Source of the DNA: Candidatus Thiodiazotropha sp. (ex Myrtea sp. 'scaly one' KF741663)
Lineage (GTDB): Bacteria > Pseudomonadota > Gammaproteobacteria > Chromatiales > Chromatiaceae
Direction: 5' to 3'
Assembly: GCA_025655555.1 (NCBI GenBank)
Contig: JAHXIQ010000001.1
Span: 434,001-498,000 of the forward strand
DNA length: 64,000 nt
The notes under the pieces are model-generated. The model ran no database searches. It saw nothing but the letters and a program-made list of their open reading frames with translations, and was not told the DNA's origin. Positions 36,897 to 43,288 of this stretch are shown here, piece after piece. The position numbers and the translations under genes are program-made. Position 1 is the first letter of the stretch; the number at the start of each line of letters is the position of its first letter.

Positions 36897-36974
36897 CTTC
36901 CCTTCTGAGGAGCGCTGCAACGGATCGTTATCCGCCAGGCTTGGAGGGGAAGTGATTTGTATCAAACCGCGCTC
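36897..36974 (+). promoter_or_regulatory. S-adenosylhomocysteine (SAH) riboswitch upstream of ahcY
   Basis: The conserved core GAGGAGCGCTGCAACGG and GCCAGGCTTGG of the SAH riboswitch is visible. P1 is a 13-bp helix (36897-36909 with 36940-36952, with G-U pairs). P2 is CGGAT-CGTT-ATCCG (36921-36934). A short TTTG/CAAA helix follows, and GAGCGC (36910-36915) pairs with GCGCTC (36969-36974) as the expected pseudoknot. When SAH builds up, ligand binding would raise expression of ahcY, whose ribosome site CAGGAG lies 12 bases after the pseudoknot arm. Confidence 0.93.
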
Positions 36975-37001
36975 ACTCACGATATTCAGGAGATGACTAC
37001 C

Positions 37002-39493: not shown

Positions 39494-40849
39494 CTATTCC
39501 TCCACCTCACCCCAATGCACCAAAACCTCTATACGCCGCGTCATGCGTGCTATCTGTGGCCAATCGTGGGCAATAATATCCTGAGAATGGGCCAGATTGT
39601 TACGCAATGATTCCAAATCACGGATAACCTTCTTTGCACTTCTGCGTGTGGCAAAACCCAGTTGGGACAATGCTTCATCACTGTTAATCAAGATCTGTGC
39701 CTTGTCCGAGAACTGCAGACAATCAAGCAAATCACCAGCCTGCCCTCTGCGAATACGTTCCGTTTGCAGCTTTTTTGCATTTTCCAGACGCTTTTTACTT
39801 AGCTGGTTTTGCCAATCATCCTCTGGGTAAGCTTCCTTGATATGACTGATCAGGTTCATCTCAATAATGGTAATCATACCGAACAGCCACATACGAACGA
39901 TCGGCTTCTGTATGTGAGATCGCAAAATAATACCGGAAAGATCCCCGAGTAATGCGATAAAGCAACACTCGTGACGCGTCAATACCTGAATGACGTCAGA
40001 CAAGGATGCATCTCCATGTAGCACCTGGCCCTTGGCAAATTGCCGCTTATAATCACGGCAAATACCGCTATCAAGGTCATCCAGTTGCACAAAGCCGCTT
40101 ACAAGGCCCTGGTCACGCAGGGCAGCGACAATCCACCCTTTGGATCTCATCACTTCCTGTACCATTTCAACCCGCGAATCCGCATCAAATGAGGCAAGAG
40201 GTTCCGCAATATCAACCGCCTTGAATGATTCGGTGAAATGACGCAGCGCCCTTTGCTGCTCAAAGGGAACACCATGGCCTTCCGGGGCTACCTCTCTGGC
40301 CAAATCAAGCCTGTTTTTATCCTGTTTGTCATGTTGATCATGACATGCCTGCCAGACCTTCCAGGCCCGCTTATAGAGCCTCTCATCGCCCTCCTGCAGG
40401 ACTGTCAGTAAGGCTTCCATTTCGACAAGAAAAACTTTGGAGAACCGATTGTCATGGCGGCAGATATCCCGGCAATTGTCGATCAAATCTGCCAACTTGA
40501 TAGTTTTGGCTCTCGCTGAAGCCTTGGCTGTGTGTTGTCGATCGATCAGTTTTCGCGCTGCACGATTCCCATCACTCGGTCGACTGATATCGGTTAGTTC
40601 CGACACTAACAGTGCCACATCCGAACCAAACTCGCGTTCAATATCTTGCACGGTTGCAGGCGTATCCTCCACCGCATCATGCAGCCAGGCCGCTGCAATC
40701 ATGTGTCTATCGTCAACAACTTCCTTGACCAGATTCGCAACGGCTTTGAGATGCACATCGTAAGGTTGATTTGAGTATTTACGCCGCTGATCAATTCTTG
40801 CATGGGCCTGTGTAGCGTACTCTATAGCGCTTAGTACCAGATCATTCAT
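39494..40849 (-). CDS. HD (MESH1-like) - CBS - HEPN-like multidomain protein
   Basis: The first 190 residues of this 451-residue protein match the HD hydrolase domain of RelA/SpoT and MESH1: PYDVHLKAVANLV, AAWLHDAVEDTPATV with the HD and ED pairs, and KTIKLADLIDNCRDI. Hydrolysis of ppGpp or a similar nucleotide is therefore plausible. Residues 225-345 look like a CBS pair (GDASLSDVIQVLTRHECCFIALLGD), which often binds adenine nucleotides. The last 100 residues are helical and contain LESLRNNLAHSQDI, matching the HEPN RNase motif (R, four residues, H). No synthetase domain is present. It overlaps the upstream kinase gene by four bases. Confidence 0.7.
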   Translation of the reverse strand: MNDLVLSAIEYATQAHARIDQRRKYSNQPYDVHLKAVANLVKEVVDDRHMIAAAWLHDAVEDTPATVQDIEREFGSDVALLVSELTDISRPSDGNRAARKLIDRQHTAKASARAKTIKLADLIDNCRDICRHDNRFSKVFLVEMEALLTVLQEGDERLYKRAWKVWQACHDQHDKQDKNRLDLAREVAPEGHGVPFEQQRALRHFTESFKAVDIAEPLASFDADSRVEMVQEVMRSKGWIVAALRDQGLVSGFVQLDDLDSGICRDYKRQFAKGQVLHGDASLSDVIQVLTRHECCFIALLGDLSGIILRSHIQKPIVRMWLFGMITIIEMNLISHIKEAYPEDDWQNQLSKKRLENAKKLQTERIRRGQAGDLLDCLQFSDKAQILINSDEALSQLGFATRRSAKKVIRDLESLRNNLAHSQDIIAHDWPQIARMTRRIEVLVHWGEVEE

Positions 40850-42933
40850 CTGACTTCTTTCATCGGCGCTTGATACAATCGGGAACCTGCATAACGCTCG
40901 ATAATCACGTCAAGCTGCTCAGGTTCAACCGGCTTATTAAGAAAACCATCCATGCCCGCTTGCATACAATGCTCCATCGCATCCTCTGCAGTGTTTGCAG
41001 TCAGCGCATAAATTGGCAAGTGGCTGTCAGCCGGTTCCATCCGGCGAAACTGCAGGGTAAATTCAATACCATCCATACGGGGCATGCGCAGATCGATAAA
41101 GGCCAGGTGGTAGTTCGACTGGGTGGCCGCTTCAAGTGCTTCTTCACCATCTTTTGTGATATGTACAGAATGCCCACGCTGAATCAGTAACGTGGAAAGC
41201 ACTTTTGCAGCGATGGCATTGTCCTCTGCCAGCAATATCTGGATGCCGGTGGATTCCTGCACCTCGCGCCCAAGCGCACTTGAGAGAGAGTCACGGCGTG
41301 ACTGAAGCTCCCGTAGAGGATCGAGAACGGCTTCCACAAGGTCATCCGCCAAAAAGGGTTTCATTAAAACTCGCGAGACCGGCGATGGCACACCAATAGT
41401 ACGGCCGCGATAACCAGCCAGAAGAACCAGAGGATTCCCCTCCAGAATTTCCAAACGTGAGAAGATCGAATTCAATCCGACGCCAGCAAGAGAATCACAT
41501 ACCAGTACAACATCGAAGCTGTGATCGAGATAAGGGGTCAGTGCTTTCATTGATAGGACAGGAAAGGGCTTCATACCCAACTCTTCAGCGATTTTGAGAT
41601 GTAACTCCATATTCTGCGGGTCACTCTCGTAAATCAGTATACGCTTACCTTCCAGAAGTGGTGAAATGACAGGCAGAGCAGCACCTTGCCCCAGAAATAA
41701 GGGCAACCGGGCGCTGAAGGTTGTGCCCGTATCCACTCGGCTCTCGACACTGATATCTCCTCCCATGCGACGACAGAGATCACGAGCCACTGTCGTACCT
41801 AATCCGGTGCCTCCAAAACGTCGGCTGTTGGAAGCATCTGCCTGCCAGAACATATCGAAGATATGCTTCAACTTATCTTTTGGAATACCAATGCCGGTAT
41901 CAGATACCTGGATCAACACATGGGGCTCACTCAGCTGTTCATTGGCCGGCGCATATTCAACACGCAGCATCACGCTACCAGTGTCGGTGAACTTAATGGC
42001 GTTACCGAGTAAGTTAAAGAGAATCTGTGAAAGACGGAGGTTGTCTCCCTGTAATCTTCGCGGAATTCTGGGATCTACCCAGCAACGCATCTCGAGCTGT
42101 TTTTCCTGTGCTTCACCGGCCAGTGACGAATTGACGTTTCCCACCAATTGGCGAATATCGAACGGCTCACTCACCAATTCCAGTTTATTGGCATCAATCT
42201 TGGAAAAATCGAGAATATCTCCAATCAATGCCCGCAATAATTGAGCAGAGGAAAGAATTGAGTGGAGATACTCTTTCTGCTCTGCATCCAGTGGCGTTCC
42301 CTGCATCAGCCTGGTCATACCCAGGATACCGATCAAAGGCGTGCGCAGTTCATGCGTCATTGTTGCGAGAAAATCACCTCGTGCCTTGTTTGCCTGCTCC
42401 GCGTCCTGCCTGGCTCTATGGAGCTTACGCAACAGGCTGTATTGATAAATCGGCAGTAACACCAGAAGCAGCATAAAAAAGAGAGCATCAAAAGTGTGCG
42501 TATGCCACTCCTGCAAAGCAATCAGCACCAGATTGAAGGCAATAAGACTGAGTACCGAGGCAGCCATTAAGAGGGGTTTCCCGTAACGGGTGCCGTAGGA
42601 GACAAAGATCCAAATATAGAGCAGGAAGAAGGGACTGACCGCCTCTTGGGTCAGGAAGATAGCCAGACTGGTCGCGCTGACATCGGCAAACAGTGTCACG
42701 TAGGGCCTCAGGCCCATTACGGGATGTTGGTAAACGCTGATCAGCGTCAGTACGAAAAAGATGAAATAGCCGCCAAACAGCAAATAAAAGAGTATGACAT
42801 TGACGTCGTAATACTCCGTCCATGCGCCAAGACCAATATAGACAATACTGAACAGCCAAATCCCCAGGCGGACCAACGCCGACTGAAACTCTGGATTCCG
42901 CAATAGCTCATGATTTATGAGTCTTGAGAACAT
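40846..42933 (-). CDS. RpfC-like hybrid sensor histidine kinase
   Basis: This 695-residue kinase has an N-terminal input of about five membrane segments (ELLRNPEFQSALVRLGIWLF onward) resembling that of RpfC, the diffusible-signal-factor sensor. The kinase core has LATMTHELRTPLIGILG (phosphorylated His), an N-box near NLLGNAIKFTDTG and DTGIGIPKDK plus GGTGLGTT. Two receiver domains follow. The first is degenerate around the acceptor site (DVVLVCDSLAG). The second is complete (LLAEDN, AFIDLRMPRMDG, NKPVEPEQ). Unlike RpfC there is no HPt domain. The ATG at 42933 has AGGA upstream. It is coupled to the HD-CBS-HEPN gene. Confidence 0.88.
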   Translation of the reverse strand: MFSRLINHELLRNPEFQSALVRLGIWLFSIVYIGLGAWTEYYDVNVILFYLLFGGYFIFFVLTLISVYQHPVMGLRPYVTLFADVSATSLAIFLTQEAVSPFFLLYIWIFVSYGTRYGKPLLMAASVLSLIAFNLVLIALQEWHTHTFDALFFMLLLVLLPIYQYSLLRKLHRARQDAEQANKARGDFLATMTHELRTPLIGILGMTRLMQGTPLDAEQKEYLHSILSSAQLLRALIGDILDFSKIDANKLELVSEPFDIRQLVGNVNSSLAGEAQEKQLEMRCWVDPRIPRRLQGDNLRLSQILFNLLGNAIKFTDTGSVMLRVEYAPANEQLSEPHVLIQVSDTGIGIPKDKLKHIFDMFWQADASNSRRFGGTGLGTTVARDLCRRMGGDISVESRVDTGTTFSARLPLFLGQGAALPVISPLLEGKRILIYESDPQNMELHLKIAEELGMKPFPVLSMKALTPYLDHSFDVVLVCDSLAGVGLNSIFSRLEILEGNPLVLLAGYRGRTIGVPSPVSRVLMKPFLADDLVEAVLDPLRELQSRRDSLSSALGREVQESTGIQILLAEDNAIAAKVLSTLLIQRGHSVHITKDGEEALEAATQSNYHLAFIDLRMPRMDGIEFTLQFRRMEPADSHLPIYALTANTAEDAMEHCMQAGMDGFLNKPVEPEQLDVIIERYAGSRLYQAPMKEVR

Positions 42934-43288
42934 ATCCACATCCTGCTTTTCCGCGAGAGCTCCCCTGGACCGATCTTCGGCCCGGATAGAATGGCATTAT
43001 ACTTAAGGTGACACGCTACAACAGCGAGTTTACGGACAATACCATGAGGAACAGAGACAACCTTCACCCTTTCATCTTTTCATCTGGTCATGCGATGGGT
43101 AATACAGATCTGTCTGATCGTTGCGAAGACGAGAAACGACTCAGATAGCTCCGAAAGTCTTCAGTTTCACCACACCCAGTTTGCGAATTCTGTCATAAGC
43201 ACTATCATTTCGATAAGGTCGATATAGCAACCACAGCATTATTACATCAGCTTCAGACCTCCCTATCAGCAGCAACGAAGTCCTAAAC
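42934..43288. promoter_or_regulatory. 355-base divergent spacer, kinase / PilZ gene
   Basis: Promoters for both divergent genes should be here. A 34-codon frame at 43044 is too short and lacks support. No strong hairpin or repeat was found. Confidence 0.4.

Follow-up and report, generated by a model that had tools for sequence, protein, structure and literature searches.

What does a protein do in which an alarmone-type hydrolase domain is joined to a region resembling CBS and a tail resembling HEPN, and does its function depend on the membrane hybrid histidine kinase whose gene lies directly ahead of its own? This question is raised by a locus in a stretch of 64,000 nucleotides (hereafter 'the window') from Candidatus Thiodiazotropha sp. 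(ex Myrtea sp. 'scaly one' KF741663), in which the gene of what we call the HD-CBS-HEPN protein (451 aa, ATG start) occupies positions 39494..40849 on the minus strand. Domain make-up, intact catalytic positions and purifying selection are apparent at the level of the sequence, and suggest to regard the protein as a self-contained multidomain nucleotide-response enzyme, that is, as a CBS-gated HEPN RNase carrying its own alarmone-type hydrolase. We assign this reading a probability of about 0.5; its best-supported points are the chemistry class of the HD domain and the intact HEPN-type motif.

Domain architecture

The N-terminal HD domain (residues 8-130; 40460..40828, minus strand) is of the RSH/MESH1 type, as had been predicted. 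It matches Pfam HD_4 over the cut-off (E 1e-15), and its top matches among solved structures are MESH1 (3nqw, E 8.7e-19; 3nr1, E 2.5e-13) and Rel enzymes (their hydrolase half), with H33, H57-D58, E61-D62, D121 and N125 aligning with the catalytic positions in these structures. Residues H33, H57, D58, E61, D62, K118, D121 and N125 are unchanged in all 30 aligned homologues, i.e., the window protein and 29 of 40 fetched loci. Omitted from this alignment were loci close to rows that were kept (L080, 97% identical to L079; L077 and L111, 86% and 83% identical position by position), four with an uncertain start (L093, L102, L106, L112), three that are broken or partial (L107, L109, L115) and L108, which has no HD domain. 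Within the 30 sequences the HD domain is the best-conserved part (mean pairwise distance 0.33, versus 0.45 for HEPN and 0.55 for CBS). The expectation that a ppGpp synthetase is lacking was likewise borne out, since no synthetase match was obtained at E≤10; in fact, the Pfam matches of the whole protein at this threshold comprise only HD_4, HD, two HEPN models and Ribosomal_L22.

It is conceivable, if rather improbable, that the HD domain acts on a substrate other than (p)ppGpp, be it NADPH (reported for MESH1), (p)ppApp or 3'-pyrophosphorylated tRNA ends, in which case the protein would tend or destroy tRNA. According to the accessible parts of the respective papers, a bacterial single-domain small alarmone hydrolase of the HD kind hydrolyses (pp)pGpp, pppApp and NADPH (PMC9765508), and toxic synthetases pyrophosphorylate tRNA ends (PMC11559606). 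Against this stands that no small synthetase matching PF04607 was found in the window's own genome, for which reason a toxic small synthetase was dropped as a candidate partner; the genome encodes two long synthetase proteins of 723 and 732 aa.

The CBS-like region (residues ~205-318, boundary approximate; 39896..40237, minus strand) is recognized through relatives of the protein, by which route the predicted CBS pair finds its support: of 20 tail members compared with Pfam CBS, 11 give a match at E≤10, the strongest with 6.9e-7. The window protein itself is not one of these. A search of solved structures with the tail profile yielded weak matches to CBS proteins (best E 0.0082).

The C-terminal domain (residues ~319-440, boundary approximate; 39530..39895, minus strand) is HEPN-like and contains the motif R416-N-N-L-A-H421 (R-x4-H; 39587..39604, minus strand), of which R416, N417, L419, A420 and H421 are unchanged in 30/30 homologues. 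HEPN_Swt1 is matched under the Pfam cut-off, with E 0.0019 when the whole protein is searched and E 0.00029 for its tail alone, and 18 of the 20 tail members match this family at E≤10 (best 3e-5). For profile comparison with hhalign, 11 domains scoring over the HEPN_Swt1 cut-off served as reference, both together and split into subsets of four and seven. The HEPN-region profile scored 29.1 against all 11 domains (P 1.8e-4, probability 48%, 30 columns) and 29.9 against the subset of four (P 1.9e-4, 48%, 101 columns); in the latter alignment, L-R-N-N-L-A-H of the window protein sits on L-R-N-T-I-C-H. Sixty column shuffles of the HEPN profile reached at most 17.0 against all 11 domains, and the CBS and HD parts, used as controls, scored 13.6 and 16.5, respectively (8.8 to 18.3 across all three reference sets). 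Hence, the assignment of the tail as HEPN is likely, though not proven.

The motif is also widespread among loci that were found by similarity and not by the motif: RN[NH]LAH is present in 41 of 43 of these, the other two being L073 (without HD), which has RDTLAH, and L072, which is frame-broken ahead of the motif. This count omits L004 (cut), L006, L041 and L075 (pieces of broken copies), and L031-L033 and L049 (repeats).

HEPN domains that are inactive and presumed to bind RNA have been described (PMC3710099), and the HD domain is both the strongest match and the most conserved part of the window protein. One might thus envisage an alarmone hydrolase under CBS regulation, with a HEPN-like tail that has lost RNA cutting and now binds RNA or dimerises. 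The conservation of the motif's R and H in every aligned homologue goes beyond what binding alone should require, and we regard an inactive tail as possible but not probable.

Spread and conservation

The tail was found in 42/210 genomes of the family, 16/369 drawn from the class and 3/398 drawn from the phylum, the window's own genome being counted each time; for the phylum, no more than six candidates were scored in any genome among the rows listed, and the count is possibly too low. A scan of named records places the homologues mostly in Pseudomonadota and rarely in Nitrospirota and Thermodesulfobacteriota. In the relative Ca. Thiodiazotropha sp. ex Monitilora ramsayi the tail is 99% identical.

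Evidence for purifying selection on the HD-CBS-HEPN protein, as estimated from sequence comparison, is strong: the ratio of non-synonymous to synonymous substitution rates (dN/dS) is 0.054 versus genome G018, and 0.016 for the HEPN part. For the comparisons with genomes G013 and G121, dS was saturated and the ratios were discarded. The pairwise distances of the HD, CBS and HEPN parts correlate across the 30 sequences (r 0.74-0.77, with no correction for the tree); this joint variation fits an old fusion.

Among the named loci, which are the best 80 of 197 relatives passing, 78 contain the motif and 75 the HD domain; both counts carry a bias from the use of ESLRN[NH]LAH as a search pattern (one of two). 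Of the five loci without HD, L117, L146 and L154 are cut or lie at a contig edge (L142, which retains HD, is likewise cut at its start), and no HD was detected by tblastn for L190 and L191. The latter two (L190:5929-6747 and L191:5944-6759) stem from records titled Desulfobacteraceae and Candidatus Nealsonbacteria. The two loci without the motif are L167, which has RNNLSH, and L145, in which a broken frame leaves the motif on the other piece. HD is also absent from the more distant relatives L108, L198 and proteins encoded on haloarchaeal plasmids. The plasmid-borne relatives (L219:5953-6807 and matches H16-H31) are annotated as CBS domain-containing or hypothetical, and L219 weakly matches PDC-M34B and Csx1/Csm6 models.

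A further observation concerns short MESH1-like proteins. Within the genus (genomes G000-G021), the long HD-CBS-HEPN form is present in 4 of 22 genomes; of the 18 others, 17 encode a short MESH1-like protein and one, G020, has neither form. No genus genome has both forms (0/22). Replacement of the short hydrolase by the long protein was considered, and fits the genus only: in the wider family both forms coexist in at least seven genomes (G099, G152, G173, G174, G177, G180, G182), and mutual exclusion is therefore not general.

Linkage to the hybrid kinase

The kinase gene spans 40846..42939 on the minus strand (697 aa from a GTG start; position 42933, previously taken as its beginning, is an internal ATG) and shares with the HD-CBS-HEPN gene the four bases ATGA (40846..40849, minus strand), which hold the kinase stop and the start of its neighbour. 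Both genes are thus located as originally predicted. Pfam identifies HisKA (186-250), HATPase_c (298-414) and one REC domain (568-680) in the kinase, and detects no Hpt domain at E≤10; the best NCBIfam match among the 25 of 160 families listed is BarA, with 385 bits versus a cut-off of 890.

RpfC is a kinase with transmembrane, histidine kinase, REC and Hpt domains, and RpfG combines REC with HD-GYP. The original prediction saw in the window an RpfC-like kinase coupled to a partner in RpfG's place, from which it would follow that the kinase directly controls the HD-CBS-HEPN protein as one two-component module. Favourable to such a module are the four-base overlap, which recurs as ATGA in G013 and G018 and is replaced by a 5-base gap in G121, and the retention of the linkage in Thiodiazotropha and tubeworm symbionts. 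Yet the partner lacks a receiver match and the kinase an Hpt match, and the linkage is rare: the kinase adjoins the HD-CBS-HEPN gene in 7/80 named loci, 74 of which include 300 bases or more of sequence ahead of the open frame. Six of the seven form one clade of Thiodiazotropha and Lamellibrachia/Escarpia symbionts (support 100/96, midpoint-rooted tree), whereas the seventh, L145 (Ca. Endoriftia persephone), lies outside the tree, with kinase and HD-CBS-HEPN genes both frame-broken in a draft contig. The tree comprises 71 of the 80 loci, with L117, L146, L154, L190 and L191 (no HD in frame), L145 (broken), and L128, L142 and L171 (no anchor word) omitted.

Inspection of 40 wide loci gives a similar picture. 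The kinase lies directly upstream in four; in the remaining 36, of which L100 and L115 offer almost no upstream sequence, none was detected next to the gene. A related kinase with Hpt is present ~1.2 kb upstream in L093 and one ~5 kb downstream in L111, and L105 and L106 have weak kinase or receiver matches at a distance of ~4 kb or more.

Within the genus, 16 genomes without the long protein have the kinase orthologue by itself in the interval from the PilZ gene to metF, which identifies the kinase as the steadier gene and the long protein as the variable one; in G003 and G008, the other two genomes without the long form, no close relative of the kinase was found. In G014, linkage is likely, since two contigs end at the long gene and at the kinase, respectively. 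In four of the 16 genomes (L229, L232, L233, L235) a 651-aa acyltransferase-like gene (named by resemblance) lies between kinase and metF; this spot has hence gained different genes.

It follows that coupling to the kinase is local and lineage-specific and not general. A conserved RpfC/RpfG-like module is rejected in view of the linkage in 7/80 loci and the loci with the kinase alone, and direct control of the HD-CBS-HEPN protein by the kinase in the window itself appears quite unlikely. Of the expectation that the gene neighbours would be kept, what holds is that the linkage persists within one clade; outside this clade the neighbours vary freely. The kinase thus probably adds at most co-expression in one clade of symbionts.

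Genomic neighbourhood and a possible role in defence

In the window, a PilZ gene lies on the upstream side of the kinase, followed by a MutT-like gene, argJ and secA, and the other side of the HD-CBS-HEPN gene is occupied by metF, ahcY and metK (all from the list of open reading frames; the PilZ gene apart, names are by resemblance). An SAH riboswitch (RF01057, 57.1 bits) is located ahead of the ahcY gene at 36901-36981 on the plus strand.

More generally, we compared 127 neighbours from 72 of the named loci (L116-L122 and L145 omitted), taking on each side the nearest open reading frame of at least 110 aa within 1500 bases, a procedure that may include spurious frames. No family dominates: among the 25 of 132 Pfam families listed, the commonest occur in 5/127 neighbours and are metabolic or transport families. 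Of the 69 PADLOC models matched by these neighbours, the 25 listed are 24 UvrD-helicase (GajB) models and one DRT helicase, with two members each, and the other 44 have at most two members each.

These data bear on whether the protein might be an anti-phage (abortive) factor of the kind of DS-11, a tested one-protein CBS+HEPN system from DefensePredictor which, as far as the accessible text of PMC13092281 goes, requires a CBS tyrosine as well as the HEPN catalytic residues. Infection would then alter an adenine nucleotide, CBS would bind it and HEPN would cut RNA, with HD as an accessory off-switch. In favour of this, the distribution is patchy, considering the above counts for family and class; the HEPN part of the window protein weakly matches the candidate-defence model PDC-M34B (E 2.1e-4); tail relatives reside on haloarchaeal plasmids; and the HD-less tail relative L108/L197 (genome G481; 296 aa) has as its neighbour a 454-aa gene with a match (E 4.4e-40) to PDC-M36A, a candidate-defence family. 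The window locus, however, is a metK-ahcY-metF / secA region, the commonest neighbours are metabolic or transport genes, and no defence island is seen around the 72 loci among the 25 PADLOC models listed, single defence neighbours being still possible. Moreover, no relatives of the HD-CBS-HEPN protein were found in viral contigs and none of L108 in phages, and a phage origin was dropped. Taken together, a primary role in defence is a minority view to which we give limited credence.

Proposed function

We infer from the architecture and from described proteins what the protein does, which ligand it binds, in which direction control runs and what its link to the kinase means. For a nucleotide-response enzyme, the HD domain would remove the 3'-pyrophosphate from a nucleotide that is most probably (p)ppGpp, with (p)ppApp as another candidate; an adenine nucleotide or alarmone would be sensed by the CBS pair; and HEPN, probably as a dimer, would cut RNA when the state of CBS permits. 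That CBS gates HEPN is suggested by DS-11, whose function depends on a residue of CBS as well as on the catalytic residues of HEPN. The HD domain could switch the RNase off by removing the signal, or might merely help to end the stringent response. In the clade of clam and tubeworm symbionts the gene lies behind a hybrid sensor kinase, which would probably just set co-expression; elsewhere the protein would work alone.

Several findings weigh against this proposal. The window protein alone has no Pfam CBS match at E≤10, and no HEPN chain is among the matches of the tail profile in the Protein Data Bank (PDB) at E≤10. The HEPN_Swt1 matches listed for this protein family stay under the curated cut-off (18.9-22.7 versus 27.5 bits), the hhalign probability of the HEPN match is only 48%, and the comparison with the seven-domain subset is weak (22.2, P 0.0043, 8%), with the CBS and HD controls reaching 18.3 and 18.0 against the same subset. 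L190 and L191 are CBS-HEPN proteins without HD (tails 45% and 47% identical), and HD is thus not obligatory. Furthermore, the window's own genome already has long RSH proteins with HD_4 matches, so that an extra alarmone hydrolase is not strictly needed, and the substrate breadth of the bacterial single-domain hydrolase mentioned above makes the choice of (p)ppGpp less compelling.

It is tempting to speculate further that the protein is an RNase which times itself: CBS would bind a 3'-pyrophosphorylated nucleotide such as ppGpp, ppApp or a related compound, or else an adenine nucleotide linked to it, and so turn HEPN on, and HD would destroy this same signal and turn HEPN off. We consider so specific a cycle possible but not probable. 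If it exists, the protein would parallel, within the stringent response, those CARF-HEPN RNases which break down their activator, and would have come to lie behind a membrane sensor kinase in the symbionts of clams and tubeworms.

If a nucleotide-response function as such is correct, alarmone breakdown would be tied directly to RNA cleavage in one polypeptide, in several gammaproteobacterial groups and beyond. It would then bear on whether CBS can gate a HEPN RNase by means of an alarmone, which comes close to the question of the DS-11 ligand, while the kinase link would be of interest for the symbiont clade only.

Comparison with known systems

The resemblance to RpfC/RpfG consists of a membrane hybrid kinase beside an HD-domain protein, and differs in that the window kinase lacks an Hpt match, its partner lacks REC and HD-GYP matches, and the linkage is not conserved. 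With the small alarmone hydrolases MESH1, Mesh1-L and pbcSpo (PMC3153485), the window protein shares the HD catalytic positions of MESH1 and the lack of a synthetase; unlike these single-domain proteins it is 451 aa long and has CBS and HEPN regions attached. Csm6/Csx1 are CARF-HEPN RNases that degrade their own activator (PMC10897365, PMC6599890; accessible text) and likewise join a nucleotide sensor to HEPN, with activator degradation being conjectural for the window protein. They use CARF and cyclic oligoadenylate, in place of which the window protein would use CBS and presumably an alarmone; the only PADLOC match to Csx1/Csm6 is that of the haloarchaeal relative L219 (E 0.02).

DS-11, as described, resembles the window protein in having CBS and HEPN in one polypeptide. 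It differs in that its description names no domain beyond these two (the term 'HD domain' is absent from PMC13092281) and in being reported as a defence system. A search of the openly licensed literature yielded no experiment on the HD-bearing form of CBS-HEPN proteins.

The closest likeness is to the HEPN+CBS+HD proteins alr3009 and gi 118580987 (Pelobacter propionicus), which were listed by Anantharaman et al. 2013 (PMC3710099). Together with DS-11 they contradict the earlier view that no such combination had been described. In the accessible text of that paper, HEPN of the Abi2/Swt1 group is called active and CBS ligands are proposed to regulate RNA stability; an RSH/MESH1 identity of HD ('SpoT' occurs 0 times), a kinase neighbour or a test are not part of its account there. 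At the level of domain description, the window protein has the same three domains: HD lies over the Pfam cut-off, CBS is recognized via relatives, and HEPN by a motif kept in 30/30 homologues with a Pfam match under the cut-off. The HD-CBS-HEPN architecture is thus already in print as a prediction. To this we add that HD is of the RSH/MESH1 type with complete catalytic positions, that the fusion is conserved and under selection, and that coupling to a kinase is not a general feature of these proteins.

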